DNA of 34,790 nt from positions 1 to 34,790 of the IMG/VR virus record IMGVR_UViG_3300005618_000040; one strand, written 5' to 3'. A program made the position numbers and the translations under genes. The stretch's first letter is position 1, and each line of letters begins with the position of its first letter. This document shows positions 2,155 to 30,366 of the stretch, piece by piece. This DNA comes from a virus. The notes under the pieces are model-generated. The model was given only the letters and a program-made list of their open reading frames with translations, was not told where the DNA came from and did no database searches.

Positions 2155-5100
2155 CGGAAGCGGGCTCAGTCTCGGCACACTCTCGATCACGATACAGGCG
2201 TCGGTTGATCAAGCTCTTGCCGCGTTCCAGAAATTCGGCACCGACGTCGGCGCCGTAATCGACGATCAGAAAGCGAAATGGGAGGGACTGAAGACGGCGG
2301 GCGAGTCCATGAGCTCGATCGGGCAAACGCTCGCGCTCGGTATCACGGCGCCTATCGTCGCGATCGCCGGCGCGAGCGCGGCGGCCGCGGCCGGGTTTGA
2401 GCAGAGCATGAATAAAGTCGTTGCCGTGAGCGGGGCAACGGGTGTTGAGCTTGAAGCGTTGAAGGCGCAGGCAATGCAGTTAGGCGCCGATACGAAGTAC
2501 TCCGCGAAAGAAGCGGCCGACGGTATGGGCGATCTTGCCGCGGCCGGTCTTACGACGGGCCAGGTCATGGCGGCGATGCCGGGCGTACTCGATCTTGCCG
2601 CGGCCGGCACGCTCGCCGTATCGCGTGCGGCCGAAGTCACTACCGACACGCTCGGGCAGTTCGGGCTCGCGGCGAGCTCGGCCGGCCATGTCGCCGACGT
2701 TTTCGCCGTTGGTGCCGGCGCCGCGTCCATGAATGCCGAGCAGTTGGCGCAATCCATGAAGCTGGTAGGGCCGGTTGCGAATCTCGCCGGCATGAGCCTG
2801 GAACAGACGACGACGGCGATTGCTTTACTTGCCGGCGCCGGCATCAAGGCGACGGAAGCCGGTACGGGGCTCCGCGGCGTACTGGCGGCGCTCGAATCGC
2901 CATCGAAAAAGGCACAAACCGCGCTTGACGCGCTCGGCGTGAGCACAAAAGACGTTCACGGCAATCTGCTACCGCTTGACCAAATCATGCTGCAGATGAA
3001 AGAATCCGGCGCGAGCGCGGCCGATATGTTCAAGATATTCGGCCGTGAGAGCTCGGCCGCGGCTGCGGGCTTGATGAACACGGCGGGGCCGGCGTGGGCG
3101 GCGATGACGGCCGAGATAAACAACTCCGAAGGCGCCGCGAAGAAGATGGCCGAAACGCTCAATACGGGCATGGCGGGCGCGTTTGAGCAGTTCAAGGGCT
3201 CGATTGAAACGGCCGGCATCGCGCTCGGTACGAAGCTGGAACCTGTGATCATGTCGATTCTCGAAATCGGCACGAAGCTGGTAAACGATTTTCTATTGCC
3301 GGCGATCGAGTGGTTCGGCAATCTGCCGGCGCCGGTGCAGGCGTTTATCGGCGTGTTGATTGCGGCGGCGGCGGCGATCGGGCCGGTGTTGTTGGTCGCG
3401 GGGCAACTGGCGGTTGCCATTGCCGCGATCGGGCCGGCACTTACGGCGCTCGGCGTCACGTTGACGGTATCGGTCGGCGCCTTGCTCGGGTGGGCCGTCG
3501 CGATCGCCGCGGGGCTCGCCGCGCTCGTGGCGCTCGGCGTTTGGGTCAACAGTAATTGGTACGGCATCATGGGGGCGATTGAGGCGGGCGTGAACAGCGT
3601 CGTCACTAAGCTCATGGAGTTTGTGGGCTTAATGCAAAAGATCGTTCCGGCGTCAAGCGCGGCCGGCATTGCGTTAAAAGATGCCGCGCAAGGGCTATCG
3701 AAGTACAGCGACGAACTGAAGTTCGGCGCGCAACGCCACAAGATGATGCAGGACGAGTCCGACGCGACGGCCGCGGCGCATAAAAAAGCCGCGGAAGAAG
3801 CGAAAAAGGCGGGCACGGCGCACAAAGAGTTAGGCGCCGAGTTAGTCAAAGTCAAGACGGCGCATGGCAAGGTGGGCGCCGCGGCGAGCGATGCGGCCGA
3901 CGATCATAAAAAGCTGAAGAAAGCGGTAACGGAAACCGAAGATAAGTTTAAGACTTACAATACGGAAACCGAACTGCTCAACGCAAAAGCCGCGATATTG
4001 AGCGCGACGCATAAGAAGTTGATTACCGATCTTGCCGCGGCGCAACTCGCGGCCGAGACGATGGGGCAAAAGCTCGAAAGCGGGCTCGGGCCGGCGCTCG
4101 ACGCGACGAAAGATAGCACGTCAAAGTTAGTCGCGCACTTCGACACGCTCGGCACGAACAGCTTGCCGACGGTGCTAGGCAAGCTCGGCGACTTGAAAAT
4201 GAAGATTGATCCGGCTACCGGGTCAATCGACGCAATGAATCAGGGCTTGAAAGACTTAGGCATCACGTCCGCGGCGAAGTTCACGCAGATAGCGGCCGAC
4301 GCGCAAACGGCGTACGACAAAGTAATCGCGGCGCCTGAAGCGACGCAATGGGAAAAAGATAGCGCGTTGCTCAAGTTGTTGGAAGCGCAACGGCAAAAGA
4401 TGATTGCGAACGGGCAAGAGATACCGGCGCTCATGGATCAGCAAATGACCGATCTTAAGGGTAAGATCGACGGCAAGGCGCCCGAAATCAAAGGCGCGTT
4501 TGACGGGATGATGAGCTCGGTTTCGACCGTGATCACGAATTTCGCGCAGGACATTTCCAAATCGCTTTGGGAGGGCGATACGTCATGGGGCGAGAAGGGA
4601 AAAAAGCTCCTAACGTCGCTCGGCGAAGCCGTCACGAGCTCTTTTATTGAGCCGGCCGCGAAAGCAATCTCGGCATTCATCGCGAAAGAGCTCGCCGACT
4701 TGCTCGGAGCGAAGGGGTTCGGCGGGCTGCTCGATCTGGTAAAAGATATCGGCGCGAAAATCGCCGGCATCTTCACGAGCGCGGCGCCGTCGGTGCCTTC
4801 CAGCGTGCCGGGAATTCCGAATGTCGGTTTGCCGGGGCCTTCGCCACCATCGGGCGGCTCGCCGTCGAGCTCCGCGGGCGCCGCGCTCGGCGCAGGACTT
4901 TCCGGTATCGTGGGGATGATATCGGGCGTGGTGAGCGCGATCAGCGGAGTTATCAGTAACTTCCAGTTCGCGGCGATGAATAAGTCGCTCGATATCATCG
5001 TCAAACACACGCTGCAAACGGCTAACGATCTGTTCAATTTGCGGCGCGACGACTGGGACCGGCACGCCGAGTACGCGCTCTGGAAGGACGATTATCTTTC

Positions 5101-14003: not shown

Positions 14004-15056
14004 ATGAGCAACGTAATCAGCAGTGAGAAAAAATCGCCGATCGTGGTTAGCTACGGCGCCGGCCGTGACAGTACAGCAATGCTGGTCGAAATGTGGAAGC
14101 GCAACATGCGGCCGGACGCGATCGTATTCGCGAACGTCGGAAGCGAAAAGCGCGAGACGTACGAGTATATCCGCCTGTTCGATGGTTGGCTCAAGCAACA
14201 CGATTTTCCGGGTATTACGGTTGTCCGTTACGAGCCGAAGCGGGCGCCCTACCGCTCGATCGAGGGCAACATGGTGCTCAACGCGACTCTGCCAGGTGCG
14301 GCCTTCAACATGCATTCGTGCGCGATGAAGTTCAAGATTGAGCCGCAAGTCAAATGGGCGAATCACTGGGCGCCGGCGCGCGAAGCATGGGCGCGCGGTC
14401 AAAAGGTCCGGAAGTTCATCGGGTTTGAAGCCGGCGAAACGCATCGCGTGAAGCGCGCCGACGCGCGGGCTCATTCCGGCAAGGCGAACAAGAACGAAGC
14501 GAAGCGGTACACGTACGAAATGCCGTTGATGGAATGGGGGCTCGATCTGGAAGCCTGCATTGCGAGCATCCGCGAAGTCGGCTTGCCGGTGCCGGCGAAG
14601 TCGTCCTGCTATTTCTGCCCGTTCCAAAAGACTGAGGAAGTCGATACGGCGACGCCGGAAGATCGCGCACGTACGATCCTGATTGAGCTCACGGCCGAGC
14701 CGTACAACACGGCCGTACAGGGCTTGTGGCGCCGGCCGCGGAAAGAAGACGGCCGGCCTGGTTCGATCACCGAGTACATCCTCGAAAAGAAACTGGACTT
14801 CGTACCGCTGCACGAGCTCGCCGATACGATCGTGCTGAATGACAAGTGCCAAAAGGCGCGCACCGGCGTTACGCTGCAGGCGCCGCACTTGCCGGTGAGC
14901 TTGCGCGATCGGCTCACGGCCGCGGGGCACGCCGTACCGCGCGTGGTGACGCCGGAAGCATGGGACGGCCGCGGCAAGGTGTACACCGAATCGCTCCGCG
15001 AAGTGCCGGCCGACGTTGAAGACGAAATGCACGCCGAGCTAATCGCCGCGGCGTAA
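14004..15056 (+). CDS. PP-loop ATPase, PAPS reductase-like (early copy)
   Basis: This 350-residue protein belongs to the adenine-nucleotide alpha-hydrolase/PAPS reductase superfamily. The ATP-binding PP-loop is SYGAGRDS (residues 16-23). Cys106 in HSCAMKFKI matches the position of the functional cysteine followed by lysines. FIGFEAGETHRVKR resembles the GISxDE motif, and CYFCPF (Cys202, Cys205) could bind zinc or an iron-sulfur cluster. Family members adenylate a substrate for sulfur or amine transfer, or reduce PAPS. In phages the substrate is usually unknown, and nucleic-acid modification is a reasonable guess. It is alone in its transcription unit. A second member lies at 29587-30366. Confidence 0.85.
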   Translation: MSNVISSEKKSPIVVSYGAGRDSTAMLVEMWKRNMRPDAIVFANVGSEKRETYEYIRLFDGWLKQHDFPGITVVRYEPKRAPYRSIEGNMVLNATLPGAAFNMHSCAMKFKIEPQVKWANHWAPAREAWARGQKVRKFIGFEAGETHRVKRADARAHSGKANKNEAKRYTYEMPLMEWGLDLEACIASIREVGLPVPAKSSCYFCPFQKTEEVDTATPEDRARTILIELTAEPYNTAVQGLWRRPRKEDGRPGSITEYILEKKLDFVPLHELADTIVLNDKCQKARTGVTLQAPHLPVSLRDRLTAAGHAVPRVVTPEAWDGRGKVYTESLREVPADVEDEMHAELIAAA

Positions 15057-19536: not shown

Positions 19537-20010
19537 ATGTCCAAAAAGCTGGAATTGCTCACGAAGCATATCGCTGCCGACCGGCTTAAGTTGAGTGTCC
19601 GACGTCTAACCGAGCTCGCGGCCGAAGGCAAATTTACACGGCATCGCGCGTTCGATCCGGAGACGCGGCGCGATGCACTGATGTTTGATGCCGCGGAGAT
19701 TGAAGCCTATCAGGGCCGGCGAGAATACGACTCGGCGCCCGCGGGCACGACGGCCGCGCTCGTGACGACGGCGCCGCGGCGGTTGCCGCTCGACGAGTAC
19801 GATATCGACGAACCGGCCGCGGCCGTCACGTTGCGGCCGTGGCTCACGATCGCCGAATCCGCGGAGTACTCGGGCTTGCCGGCGTCGCACTTGCTCGGCA
19901 TGATCGAAGCCGGCGAGCTCGCCGCTCGCGACGTCGGCATCCGGCCGGGTGGACACTGGCGGGTGCGGCGTCTCGATCTGGACGCGATCGAAGGCGAGCG
20001 CGTCAAATAG
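19537..20010 (+). CDS. Regulator with two excisionase/MerR-like helix-turn-helix units
   Basis: This 157-residue protein seems to hold two winged helix-turn-helix units of the excisionase type. The first is ADRLKLSVRRLTELAAEGKFTRHRAFDPETRR (about residues 12-46). The second is WLTIAESAEYSGLPASHLLGMIEAGELAARDVGIRPGGHWRVRRLDLDAIE (about 102-153), a classic HTH_17-like layout with a conserved GGHWRV end. An Ala/Thr/Pro linker joins them. It may regulate early genes or replication; no integrase is present to suggest a true excisionase. The leaderless arrangement upstream is described separately. Confidence 0.8.
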   Translation: MSKKLELLTKHIAADRLKLSVRRLTELAAEGKFTRHRAFDPETRRDALMFDAAEIEAYQGRREYDSAPAGTTAALVTTAPRRLPLDEYDIDEPAAAVTLRPWLTIAESAEYSGLPASHLLGMIEAGELAARDVGIRPGGHWRVRRLDLDAIEGERVK

Positions 20011-20368: not shown

Positions 20369-20499
20369 ATTCGCCCTAAAAAGCGAATGGCCCCACGATG
20401 CTGGAAACATCGTGGGGCTGGATGTATTCCGGCCAGATCGGAAACAACAGGTTCAATGTTGAAATCCAGCCGGGACGCTAACGAGCGTACCACAAAATC
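20369..20499 (+). ncRNA. Cluster of conserved-looking hairpins upstream of the replication gene
   Basis: Consecutive perfect stems: ATTCGC/GCGAAT (20369-20388), an 11-bp GCCCCACGATG/CATCGTGGGGC (20390-20418, 7-base loop), and a three-way junction closed by GGCTGGAT (20416-20423) with ATCCAGCC (20464-20471). The junction encloses TTCCG/CGGAA (20427-20443) and CAACA/TGTTG (20445-20461), both with 7-base loops. ACGCT-AACG-AGCGT follows. The 11-bp stem and the closing stem share three bases and cannot both form fully, so the RNA could switch. A control RNA, leader or part of the origin are all possible. Confidence 0.55.
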
Positions 20500-20556: not shown

Positions 20557-21714
20557 ATGAGTGTTGAAACCGCACATATGCCGGAATCGCCGGCGATGCA
20601 TGTCGATCGCAAACCGCAACAATCGGAACGGTCGCGCGATCGCGCCGGGTTCGTCAAACTTCGCCGCGGCCGGCTCGAAAAGGGCGCCGCGGAGGGCACA
20701 CTGTCATGGAACTACGAAACCGTGATTCGCGCGTTCGGGCCGATCGGCGCGTGGGCCTTCGTCTACGTGCTCGACCGGACGACGGAAGCATATCCGCCGC
20801 GCGATTACGTCAAGCTCGATCTAGACGATTTGGGCGCGGCCTTGAACGTCGGCGAGCGGCAAGCGCGCAACGTAATCGACACGTTGATCGAAAAGGGCGG
20901 CATTGCCCGCGATCCGGACGACGCCGGCCGCGTGCGCGTATGCCTGGACGCGATCGAGCGGGCGCCGGCGCGGACGCGGACGTACGAGCGGAAGGCCGAG
21001 GCGGAAGTCCGCGGCGCTCAAATGGGGTTGCCGCTCGTGAAAATATTTTCACCGGAGCCGGCCGCGCCGGTGATCGAGGATCGGGCGCCCGAAAGTGAAA
21101 ATATTTTCCCGATCCTGCAGGCGCCGACTGCAAATATTTTCACTGAGCCGGAAGGAAATTGCCGGAAGCCGGAAAGTTATTGCCCGTGGAATTGGAGTTG
21201 TCCACATCTTTCGAGCGGGTTAGCGACACTGCAGACCTATGCAGAAGTGAAATCCTCAGAGTCGTCGTCGTCGGTAGACGTGGACGACGCCGACGCGAAA
21301 AGCGTATTTAGCACAAATTCCTTCCACGCCGAGCTTGCTCGCGCGTTCGCCGGCGCCGGAAAATCCGTGCCGACGGAGCGACAGTCCGCGGCCGTCTACG
21401 ACGCGATCGACGGCGCGGCGTTTCTCGCGTGGCTCACGCCGGCGAAGCTCCTGAAGGCGAACGGGCCGGGTATTCTACCCAGTTGGATTGAGGAATTCCG
21501 TACGTTCACGGCCGCGGCGCAATCGCTAGCGGGCGATCGGGCGGCGGCGCGGTTGCGCGAGCGCGAAGAATTGCACGCACTCGCGGAGCGGGCGCGGCTC
21601 GACGACGAACGGGCGAAGGCGCGGGCGGCGAACTGTGACAAGTGCCACGGTGCCGGCGTCATCAAAACGGCCGGCCGGCCGTCTAAACGCTGCATTTGCC
21701 AGGACGCGCGGTAA
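20557..21714 (+). CDS. Replication-initiator-like protein
   Basis: This 385-residue protein has an N-terminal winged helix domain (about residues 45-135: LSWNYETVIRAFGPIGAWAFVYVLDRTTE, LDDLGAALNVGERQARNVIDTLIEKGGIARDPD) like the helix-turn-helix domain of phage replisome organisers (lambda O/DnaD-type start). A disordered Pro/Glu/Ser-rich middle follows (about 160-260), then a helical part and a C-terminal zinc motif CDKCHGAGVI...KRCIC. Palindromic AT-rich repeats lie inside the coding sequence, as origin repeats do in lambda O. A GAGGAG site precedes the ATG. I infer origin binding and recruitment of host replication proteins, since no polymerase or helicase is encoded. Confidence 0.65.
   Translation: MSVETAHMPESPAMHVDRKPQQSERSRDRAGFVKLRRGRLEKGAAEGTLSWNYETVIRAFGPIGAWAFVYVLDRTTEAYPPRDYVKLDLDDLGAALNVGERQARNVIDTLIEKGGIARDPDDAGRVRVCLDAIERAPARTRTYERKAEAEVRGAQMGLPLVKIFSPEPAAPVIEDRAPESENIFPILQAPTANIFTEPEGNCRKPESYCPWNWSCPHLSSGLATLQTYAEVKSSESSSSVDVDDADAKSVFSTNSFHAELARAFAGAGKSVPTERQSAAVYDAIDGAAFLAWLTPAKLLKANGPGILPSWIEEFRTFTAAAQSLAGDRAAARLREREELHALAERARLDDERAKARAANCDKCHGAGVIKTAGRPSKRCICQDAR
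21037..21206. repeat. Candidate replication origin: AT-rich palindromic repeats and a DnaA-box-like site
   Basis: Three related 16-base sites: a perfect palindrome GTGAAAATATTTTCAC (21037-21052), GTGAAAATATTTTCCC (21095-21110) and CTGCAAATATTTTCAC (21128-21143). They sit in the replication gene, and the first is in a different codon register from the other two, so the DNA itself seems conserved. TTGTCCACA (21198-21206) differs by one base from the E. coli DnaA box and equals the form known in high-GC bacteria. Confidence 0.6.
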
Positions 21715-21730
21715 CCTCCGCGTAACTCGG

Positions 21731-21759
21731 TTGTAACATCACTGAAGGGCTAGTGTATT
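21731..21759 (+). promoter_or_regulatory. Probable promoter of the structured RNA
   Basis: TTGTAA (21731-21736), a 17-base spacer and TGTATT (21754-21759). Transcription would begin near 21766, leaving about 20 unpaired bases before the first stem of the RNA at 21787. Confidence 0.5.
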
Positions 21760-21765
21760 TTCCCT

Positions 21766-21928
21766 ATACCGATGTTAGGTGGGCATGGTATAGGCTTGCG
21801 TGCAGTTACCCGAAATAGTTCGGAGACAAGCCCAACGAGGTTCATCCGTCTGAGGGATGCGGGACTTGTCCGGAAAAGTGCATGTCTATACCAACCGGCC
21901 TTTGCCCTTCGGGGGGTTTCGCGGTTGG
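21766..21928 (+). ncRNA. Folded RNA resembling HEARO/omegaRNA
   Basis: Nested stems can be read directly: GGTATAG (21787-21793) with CTATACC (21886-21892); CGTGCA (21799-21804) with TGCATG (21879-21884, one G-U); CCGAA-ATAG-TTCGG (21810-21823); GACAAGCCC (21825-21833) with GGG-A-CTTGTC (21861-21870) enclosing CATCC/GGATG (21843-21859). A second domain AACCG/CGGTT (21893-21926) holds a CCC-TTCG-GGG hairpin. The single-stranded stretches (CAACGAGGTT, GTCTGAGGG) and this fold recall the HEARO RNA that precedes IscB genes. The 5' 20 bases could be a guide. CTATACC is also present at 21764-21770 and could compete for the first stem. The family match is from memory, not from a model search. Confidence 0.6.
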
Positions 21929-21993
21929 GCTCGGCCTCAAGTACCAACACTGAATCTCTCTGTGTTTCCTCCCCTACATTTGGAGTTTCTGTA

Positions 21994-22377
21994 ATGCCGA
22001 AATACCTCGTTTTCGATCGAGCGGGCGACGCGCAATATCACGTCTCGCCGCATAAGGCGCGCCGCATGGTCGCTGGCGGTCAAGCCGAAATTATGCACGG
22101 CAACGCATTGCGGTTGCTCGGGCCGACCCAGGAACAAGAGCATCCGTGCCGTACGCACACTTCGCGCGGGGGTTTAATGGCGGCGATCGGTCGAAGCCAA
22201 CTCTACACGACCGCGAAGCGTGGCCGGCCGGCGACGACTGAGCATAAGAAAATTTTTCCGGAGGATCGGCCGGCGTACGTCGCCGCGGTGCTCGATCATT
22301 TGGTGGAAGTCCCGCGGGGGTTGTTCGTGTTTTCGCTCGCGCATGAGTGGCGGTCACCGGATCATCGGCGTTCGTGA
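21994..22377 (+). CDS. Small protein with an IscB-type PLMP-like N-terminus
   Basis: This 127-residue protein starts YLVFDRAGDAQYHVSPHKAR, then RMVAGGQAEIMHGNALRLL. This matches the layout of the PLMP domain at the start of IscB/IsrB: a V-x-D strand, a Pro, an AR-rich helix, a G-x-A turn, then a strand ending in I/L-R-L. The PLMP tetrad itself is not conserved. Residues 60-127 (KRGRPATTEHKKIFPEDRPAYVAAVLDHLVEVPRGLFVFSLAHEW) are unlike RuvC or HNH, so no nuclease is present. In IscB the PLMP domain contacts the omegaRNA; here an omegaRNA-like RNA lies directly upstream. GGAG lies 8 bases before the ATG. An internal ATG at 22177 after GGGGG could give a 66-residue second product. Function unknown. 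Confidence 0.6.
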   Translation: MPKYLVFDRAGDAQYHVSPHKARRMVAGGQAEIMHGNALRLLGPTQEQEHPCRTHTSRGGLMAAIGRSQLYTTAKRGRPATTEHKKIFPEDRPAYVAAVLDHLVEVPRGLFVFSLAHEWRSPDHRRS

Positions 22378-29098: not shown

Positions 29099-29590
29099 AT
29101 GAAGGGCAAGCGAGCAGAACGGCCGGAACCGGCCGAGACGAACGAACCCGCGGCGCCGGCCGCGGCGCCCGCGATCGAGCCGGCCGCGGCGCCGGCCGCG
29201 GAACCGGATCTGAAAACCTACCCGCGGGTGACGACGACGGAATCGTACAAACATACGTTCACGTCGATCGAGCTCGCCGAGATTGCCGACAACATGGCGC
29301 GGGCCGCGGCGCGCGTCTACGAAATCGAAAAGCAGAAGTCCGAGCAAGCCGCGCACTATGGCGCCGAGCTCAAGGCGGCGAATCTCGCGGCCGGCGAGCT
29401 CGTGGCGAAGTACAACCAACGGTACGAAATGCGCGACGTGGAATGCCGTATTGAGTATGACAAACCGGAGCCGGGTTACAAGGCGTTCATCCGGCTCGAC
29501 AACGGCGAGAGTTTGAAGGAAATGCGGATGACGGAAGCCGAGAAACAGCGGGCGTTCGTGTTTGACGCCGGCGACGGCAAACCGCAATGA
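29099..29590 (+). CDS. Scaffold-like helical protein
   Basis: This 163-residue protein has an Ala/Pro/Glu-rich disordered N-terminus (1-40), a long helix (SIELAEIADNMARAAARVYEIEKQKSEQAAHYGAELKAANLAAGELVAKYNQRYE, about 52-107), then a beta segment (VECRIEYDKPEPGYKAFIRLDNGESLKEMRMTEAEK). Coiled-coil character suggests assembly roles, but the tail resembles a small unnamed phage domain. It overlaps the next gene by ATGA. Confidence 0.65.
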   Translation: MKGKRAERPEPAETNEPAAPAAAPAIEPAAAPAAEPDLKTYPRVTTTESYKHTFTSIELAEIADNMARAAARVYEIEKQKSEQAAHYGAELKAANLAAGELVAKYNQRYEMRDVECRIEYDKPEPGYKAFIRLDNGESLKEMRMTEAEKQRAFVFDAGDGKPQ

Positions 29591-30366
29591 CCAATAGAGC
29601 GATCACTTGGAGTTACGGCGGCGGCACTCAATCCGTCGCGATCGCCGTACTCGTTGCGGCCGGCAAGCTACCGCGGCCGGATTGGATCGGCATTGCCGAT
29701 ACCGGCCGCGAATCGTCCGAGACGTGGGAGTACACGGATCGTTGGGTGCGTCCGCTCTTGCGCCAGGTGGGATTGGAAATCGAGGTTGTATCCCACTCGC
29801 TCTCCAAGGTTGATCTGCGAAGCCACAAGGGGGACTTGCTGATTCCGGCGTACACCGAAAACGGTGTGCTCGATACGTTCTGTTCGTCGGAATGGAAAAA
29901 ATTTGTGATCCGCCGGCGGCTTCGGGCGCTCGGCTACGGTCCAAAAGCTCCGGTTGCTACCTGGATAGGGATATCGCTCGACGAAATCGGCCGCTGTAAA
30001 CCGTCGGGCGTTGATTGGCAGTCCTACGAATGGCCGCTGATTTGGACGCGGCCGGCGATGCGTCGGTCGGATTGCTACGCGCTGATTGCGGAAGCCGGCC
30101 TTCCGAAGTCGCCTAAATCTTCGTGCGTCATGTGTCCTTGGCGCCGCAATGAACAGTGGGCGCACCAACGGGACAATTACCCGGAGGATCACGAGAAGGC
30201 GTGCCAATTGGACGAGGAAATTCGGGCGAAGGATCGTAGCGGGGCTGTTTGGGTGCATCACTCTCGGGTGCCGTTACGTGAAGCCGATTTGACGGTGCCG
30301 GACAAGCCGCTCTCGCCGCTGTTCGGTGAGGTGGAGGGTTGTGATTCGGGGATGTGCTGGTGTTAA
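29587..30366 (+). CDS. PP-loop ATPase, PAPS reductase-like (late copy)
   Basis: This 259-residue enzyme has PP-loop SYGGGTQS (residues 9-16), DTGRESSETWEYTDRWV, a Cys99 in TFCSSEWKKFVIRRRL, GISLDEIGRCKPS, and CVMCPWRRNEQW (Cys180, Cys183). It ends CDSGMCWC, a possible second metal site. The same motif order as the early enzyme at 14004-15056 shows a shared family, but overall sequence differs widely. It is embedded, coupled, among head genes, just before the protease. The substrate is unknown. Confidence 0.85.
   Translation: MTNRAITWSYGGGTQSVAIAVLVAAGKLPRPDWIGIADTGRESSETWEYTDRWVRPLLRQVGLEIEVVSHSLSKVDLRSHKGDLLIPAYTENGVLDTFCSSEWKKFVIRRRLRALGYGPKAPVATWIGISLDEIGRCKPSGVDWQSYEWPLIWTRPAMRRSDCYALIAEAGLPKSPKSSCVMCPWRRNEQWAHQRDNYPEDHEKACQLDEEIRAKDRSGAVWVHHSRVPLREADLTVPDKPLSPLFGEVEGCDSGMCWC

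Follow-up and report, generated by a model that had tools for sequence, protein, structure and literature searches.

The DNA analysed here, referred to as the window, is a virus record of 34,790 bases (IMG/VR IMGVR_UViG_3300005618_000040). One of its genes is built of a predicted N-terminal winged helix, a variable linker that carries three palindromes, a conserved YCPWNWSCPHL motif and a C-terminal part (Table 1), and is followed downstream by a small ORF (21772-22377) and then by the large terminase gene. No Pfam or PHROG family was found for its product, the C-terminus of which ends in a cysteine cluster, CDKCHGAGVI...CIC, that is perhaps zinc-binding. A strong inverted repeat of 13 pairs (GCCCCACGATG...CATCGTGGGGC; 20390-20418), resembling a terminator on the minus strand, lies about 140 bases 5′ of the gene. 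Elsewhere in this small phage genome, two different PAPS-reductase-like genes are present (14004-15056 and 29587-30366), both assigned to PHROG 424. Rfam and tRNA scans gave no match, and no exact terminal repeat of the record was found at the lengths tried.

Table 1. Features of the probable initiator gene and of the sites within it; positions are those of the window.
Feature	Position	Strand	Remark
Probable replication initiator gene, 385 aa	20557-21714	+	Winged-helix model; viral structure matches
Part coding for the winged helix (about aa 53-135), which probably binds the palindromes	20713-20961	+	Model; strongly diverged between related phages
Palindrome copy 1, GTGAAAATATTTTCAC, 8/8 pairs	21037-21052		Codon phase 2
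Palindrome copy 2, GTGAAAATATTTTCCC, 7/8 pairs	21095-21110		Codon phase 0
Palindrome copy 3, CTGCAAATATTTTCAC, 6/8 pairs	21128-21143		Codon phase 0
A/T-enriched block with last palindrome and motif; candidate unwinding region	21133-21267	+	Third-position A/T
Conserved motif YCPWNWSCPHL, with TTGTCCACA inside	21178-21210	+	Alignment of related phages

The initial annotation described three AT-rich palindromic 16-mers in this gene, noted that copy 1 stands in another codon register than copies 2 and 3, and concluded that the DNA and not the peptide is conserved. The three repeats were found at the positions given there and the register shift was confirmed; all three are near-palindromic, copy 1 being the only perfect palindrome among them. 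The core, AAATATTT, occurs three times in the whole 34.8-kb record, each time within a palindrome copy, and matches with up to three mismatches numbered 3 in the window against 0.06 expected, a count that was reached in 0 of 100 shuffles. Copy 1 is read through the codons GTG AAA ATA TTT TCA (V-K-I-F-S), copy 2 encodes S-E-N-I-F-P and copy 3 encodes T-A-N-I-F-T. The peptide pattern x-I-F-(S/P/T) is common to both registers, so the register shift by itself cannot settle whether DNA or peptide was selected, and the conclusion in favour of the DNA stands through a recoding test and through comparison with related phages. When the peptide was held fixed and codons followed genome usage, 1 of 1000 randomisations produced two AT-centred near-palindromes that resemble each other, and synonymous shuffling within the gene yielded such a pair in 0 of 1000. 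The codons of the palindromes (iterons) are also rarer than the remaining codons of the gene (0.39 vs 0.72, P = 0.009).

Related phages were reached solely through the large terminase and then through an alignment of the gene itself. The window protein as query found no relatives in the phage and viral-contig collections, the homologue from contig L010 had no matches among phages and plasmids, and the gene alignment found nothing in bacterial genomes. The terminase search returned nine contigs at 66-77% identity, six of which (L004-L008 and L010) carry a homologous gene before the terminase genes, and the alignment search added L097 and L099; all eight phages are in IMG/VR. The protein of L100 is identical to that of L099, which leaves eight distinct homologues; the one from L004 lacks its N-terminus at a contig edge. 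Like the window, these phages have the gene before the terminase genes wherever the contig extends there, and their terminases are 73-77% identical to that of the window. They differ from it in the sequence of their palindromes and in the C-terminal part of the protein, the part encoded at 21340-21714 (aa 262-385) having no clear counterpart in the relatives, which share another C-terminus.

In all eight homologues, the variable linker that joins the winged helix to a conserved YCxWNWxC motif likewise holds two to three palindromes. The types that differ from those of the window are CTGAAGTTAACTTCAG, CTGCATTTAAATGCAG, GTGAAACGGGTTTCAC and GGGAAATAGATATCCC. CTGAAGTTAACTKCAG or close variants are found in L005, L006, L008, L097 and L099, CTGCATTTAAATGCAG is the palindrome of L007, L004 carries three copies of GTGAAACGGGTTTCAC or its variants, and L010 has two of GGGAAATAGATATCCC or a variant, both short of full symmetry (5/8 and 6/8 pairs). 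In the related loci examined, these palindrome types were found within the gene only. The initial annotation had asked whether the repeats persist in relatives while the surrounding protein varies; the protein does vary and palindromes are kept at the same place, with the exact 16-mer replaced by a different palindrome. A search of viral contigs for two copies of the AAATATTTTC type gave 11 contigs, mostly AT-rich and apparently unrelated. The one that was looked at closely, the 61-kb contig L085 of a low-GC virus, shows a run of about five GTGAAAANNTTTTCA palindromes at 3141-3275, a possible operator or origin array.

Base-pairing of the two half-sites is maintained through compensated changes. 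In the 22 copies taken together, pairing holds at 154 of 176 symmetric positions, compared to 114 when right halves are permuted among copies, and for the best copy of each genome 67 of 72 positions pair, compared to 48; in neither case did any of 10,000 permutations do as well, figures that are not formal probabilities, since the copies are related. Full compensation was seen at pair 2 (T-A, A-T, C-G), pair 3 (G-C, A-T, T-A) and pair 5 (A-T, C-G), while the peptides encoded by the palindromes are unrelated (KIFS, NIF, ETGF, KLTS, HLNA, EIDI). Compensated dyads that encode unrelated peptides are what a DNA site of dyad symmetry, bound by a dimeric protein, would be expected to show. The spacing to the conserved motif is kept as well. 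Every member has one copy centred 42 bases (window, L010, L004) or 43 bases (the others) before the tyrosine codon of the motif. In all members but L004, where a further copy lies at 21 bases, this copy is the last. The remaining copies lie 75 to 427 bases from the motif, and linker length is highly variable. The palindromes are very likely selected at the DNA level, as sites of the protein-binding type.

The structural model of the protein, obtained with AlphaFold2 from the alignment of the relatives, contains a good winged helix, a DNA-binding fold, in the N-terminal part (pLDDT about 75-93 within the domain, in a model of aa 27-143) and a linker of low confidence. Foldseek comparison with viral models returned, at modest E-values, generic helix-turn-helix proteins and with them several named "replication initiator protein" or lambda O. 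The O proteins B0FEC8, A0A6J5LLH7 and A0A0F7L9Z4 are among these weak matches, and for the domain alone E is about 1e-3 to 1e-2. Alignment to solved structures pointed to generic winged helices: CRP and LexA made up most of the matches, the N-terminal domain of DnaD ranking lower. A winged-helix profile run against the sequences of solved structures returned noise only. No match to Phage_rep_O or a related Pfam family was found for any of the nine homologues even at E 10, nor did the window protein match a lambda O-type family in PHROGs.

The winged helix has diverged between the relatives together with the sites. Its identity to the window domain is 45-48% in L010 and about 22-28% in the other relatives. 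By comparison, identity is 57-83% for most of the neighbouring genes and 40-59% for the small ORF that precedes the terminase. L010, with the most similar winged helix, has a related half-site (GGAAAT vs GAAAAT in the window), and the L005-like group combines another domain type with GTTAAC-type sites. Over these few independent cases, the class of palindrome appears to track the class of domain and the two appear to change together, as expected for a cognate pair. That relatives keep palindromes at the same place with different letters points to docking sites for the gene's own protein, which is likely their cognate binder.

The palindromes adjoin a stretch of elevated A/T content. In the 45 codons of the block, 51% of third positions are A/T, compared to 24% in the remaining codons (P = 0.0003); seven of nine members show the enrichment at P < 0.02 and L010 at 0.056, and L004 does not show it. 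The stretch 21126-21325 belongs to the least stable 0.5% of 200-base stretches in the window (99.55th percentile), but only to the 97-98th percentile at 60-100 bases. The segment directly after the gene, 21710-21909, is still less stable, the third least stable 200-base stretch in the window; it had no Rfam match, and its folding is not significantly more stable than that of shuffles. Neither a GC-skew sign change nor a promoter-like site was found near the palindromes.

A TTGTCCACA site 55 bases after copy 3 had been noted in the initial annotation as part of an origin. It is present exactly there, at 21198-21206, and its reading as a DnaA box was rejected: the letters fall on the codons ...T-TGT-CCA-CA... 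for the conserved Cys-Pro-His of the motif, and are best read as a by-product of these codons. Related phages read ATGTCCTCA, ATGTCCCCA, ATGTTCCCA or TTGCCCGCA or the like at this place, and sites within one mismatch of TTNTCCACA are in no excess over chance (5 found vs 11.6 expected). A conserved DnaA box (TTWTNCACA), as used by DnaA-dependent origins, was not found.

Origins placed within the gene of their initiator are known. In lambda and Stx phages, the origin in the middle of gene O consists of inverted-repeat iterons (4 or 6) and an AT-rich tract, and is bound by dimeric O (PMC7466680). In SPP1, oriL lies inside gene 38, the initiator gp38 binds the repeats there, and an AT-rich region is unwound (PMC6316719). 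The window resembles the lambda system in having inverted-repeat sites within a probable initiator gene, near a mildly AT-enriched region, and resembles SPP1 in the position of the repeats within the gene of the probable initiator. Unlike lambda O, the window protein has no sequence similarity to O and the iteron sequence is different; unlike the lambda origin, the AT block is mild and overlies a conserved protein motif, and the sites are 33-58 bases apart. The SPP1 repeats, by contrast, are described as direct repeats, and a second SPP1 origin lies about 13 kb away (PMC6316719). Beyond lambda and SPP1, nothing closer was found in the literature. The likeness to the lambda O origin that was originally proposed extends to the modelled winged helix, the sites in the linker, the adjoining mildly AT-enriched block and the probable initiator gene, and does not include the DnaA-box-like site. 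The nested arrangement is already known, and the window shows the same kind of layout in a gene for which no family link to the O proteins was detected.

Repeated sites of the initiator type, clustered in coding sequence and kept in relatives, together with a modelled N-terminal winged helix, suggest that the palindromes probably form a replication origin of the lambda O type, nested in the gene of its own initiator, at which replication would start. The gene product would be a phage replication initiator, whose winged helix would bind each of the three iterons in the linker-coding part, probably as a dimer. Protein assembled on the clustered sites might then form a nucleoprotein complex and melt the AT-enriched block beside them (about 21133-21267); a helicase loader or helicase could be recruited by the C-terminal part. 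Initiator and sites would change jointly between relatives, giving each phage its own origin specificity. Against the origin stand the lack of a sequence family match to any known initiator, the weakness of the structural matches and the fact that winged helices are just as common in transcription regulators, along with the missing conserved DnaA box, the absence of a skew change, the weak AT enrichment in L004 and L010, the imperfect palindromes of L010, and the still lower stability of 21710-21909.

The resemblance of the winged helix to CRP and MarR-type regulators would suit operators, with the winged-helix protein or another phage regulator binding within the gene to control its own transcription or that of the downstream packaging genes, and with no role in replication. 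The intergenic cluster of GTGAAAANNTTTTCA palindromes upstream of a gene in the unrelated low-GC virus L085 is in keeping with such a function, and a nucleoprotein array could block elongation. However, the sites are placed some 500-600 bases into the gene, away from a promoter and with no promoter-like site nearby, neither the window nor the related loci examined have a copy ahead of the gene, and an operator needs no fixed spacing to the motif and the AT block. Moreover, the ORFs searched, which included part of the small ones, yielded no other recognisable replication initiator or replication gene. Operators are therefore an unlikely explanation. The gene is immediately followed by the small ORF and the large terminase, so the palindromes might also be cos or pac sites for a small terminase subunit, and lambda cosB does have three 16-base sites. 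Those sites are not palindromes, and the small ORF has no HTH family match. Among relatives with quite different palindromes, the terminase is 73-77% and the small ORF 40-59% identical, and it is the winged helix of the gene carrying the sites that diverges with the palindromes; a packaging function is considered very unlikely.

Clusters of palindromes with cognate winged-helix or HTH binders are also a feature of partition systems, and an excisionase-like HTH gene at 19537 hints at temperate ancestry, so that the palindromes could be centromere-like partition sites, or incompatibility sites of a plasmid prophage, bound by the winged-helix protein. The confinement of every copy to one gene and the absence of a ParA-like ATPase among the ORFs scanned make this highly improbable. 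Selection on a peptide motif in a disordered linker (x-I-F-S/P/T in the window, L-K-L-T-x-V in relatives), with the palindromes as a by-product, would account for the recurrence of x-I-F in both registers of the window and for the single codon phase of all GTTAAC-group copies, which encode (L/V)-(K/Q/H)-L-(T/N/D)-(S/A/T)-(V/I/L/G). The failure of synonymous randomisation to recreate the palindromes, the use of rare codons, and palindromy kept through compensated changes across unrelated peptides leave it hardly any credence.

With the replication origin as the preferred reading, the winged helix, the palindrome-bearing linker and the YCxWNWxC motif may together define a so far undescribed initiator family, a proposal to which we give roughly even odds, in which iteron copies and DNA-binding domain change in concert and which would comprise at least four or five initiator-iteron pairs in close relatives. 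The finding places a probable origin and its initiator on an uncultured phage group whose gene had no family match. It suggests that origin specificity may swap or drift fast, through joint change of domain and sites, with the rest of the genome remaining largely similar. The related phages, with their different palindromes, offer a ready comparison set for the co-evolution of initiator and site under protein-coding constraint.
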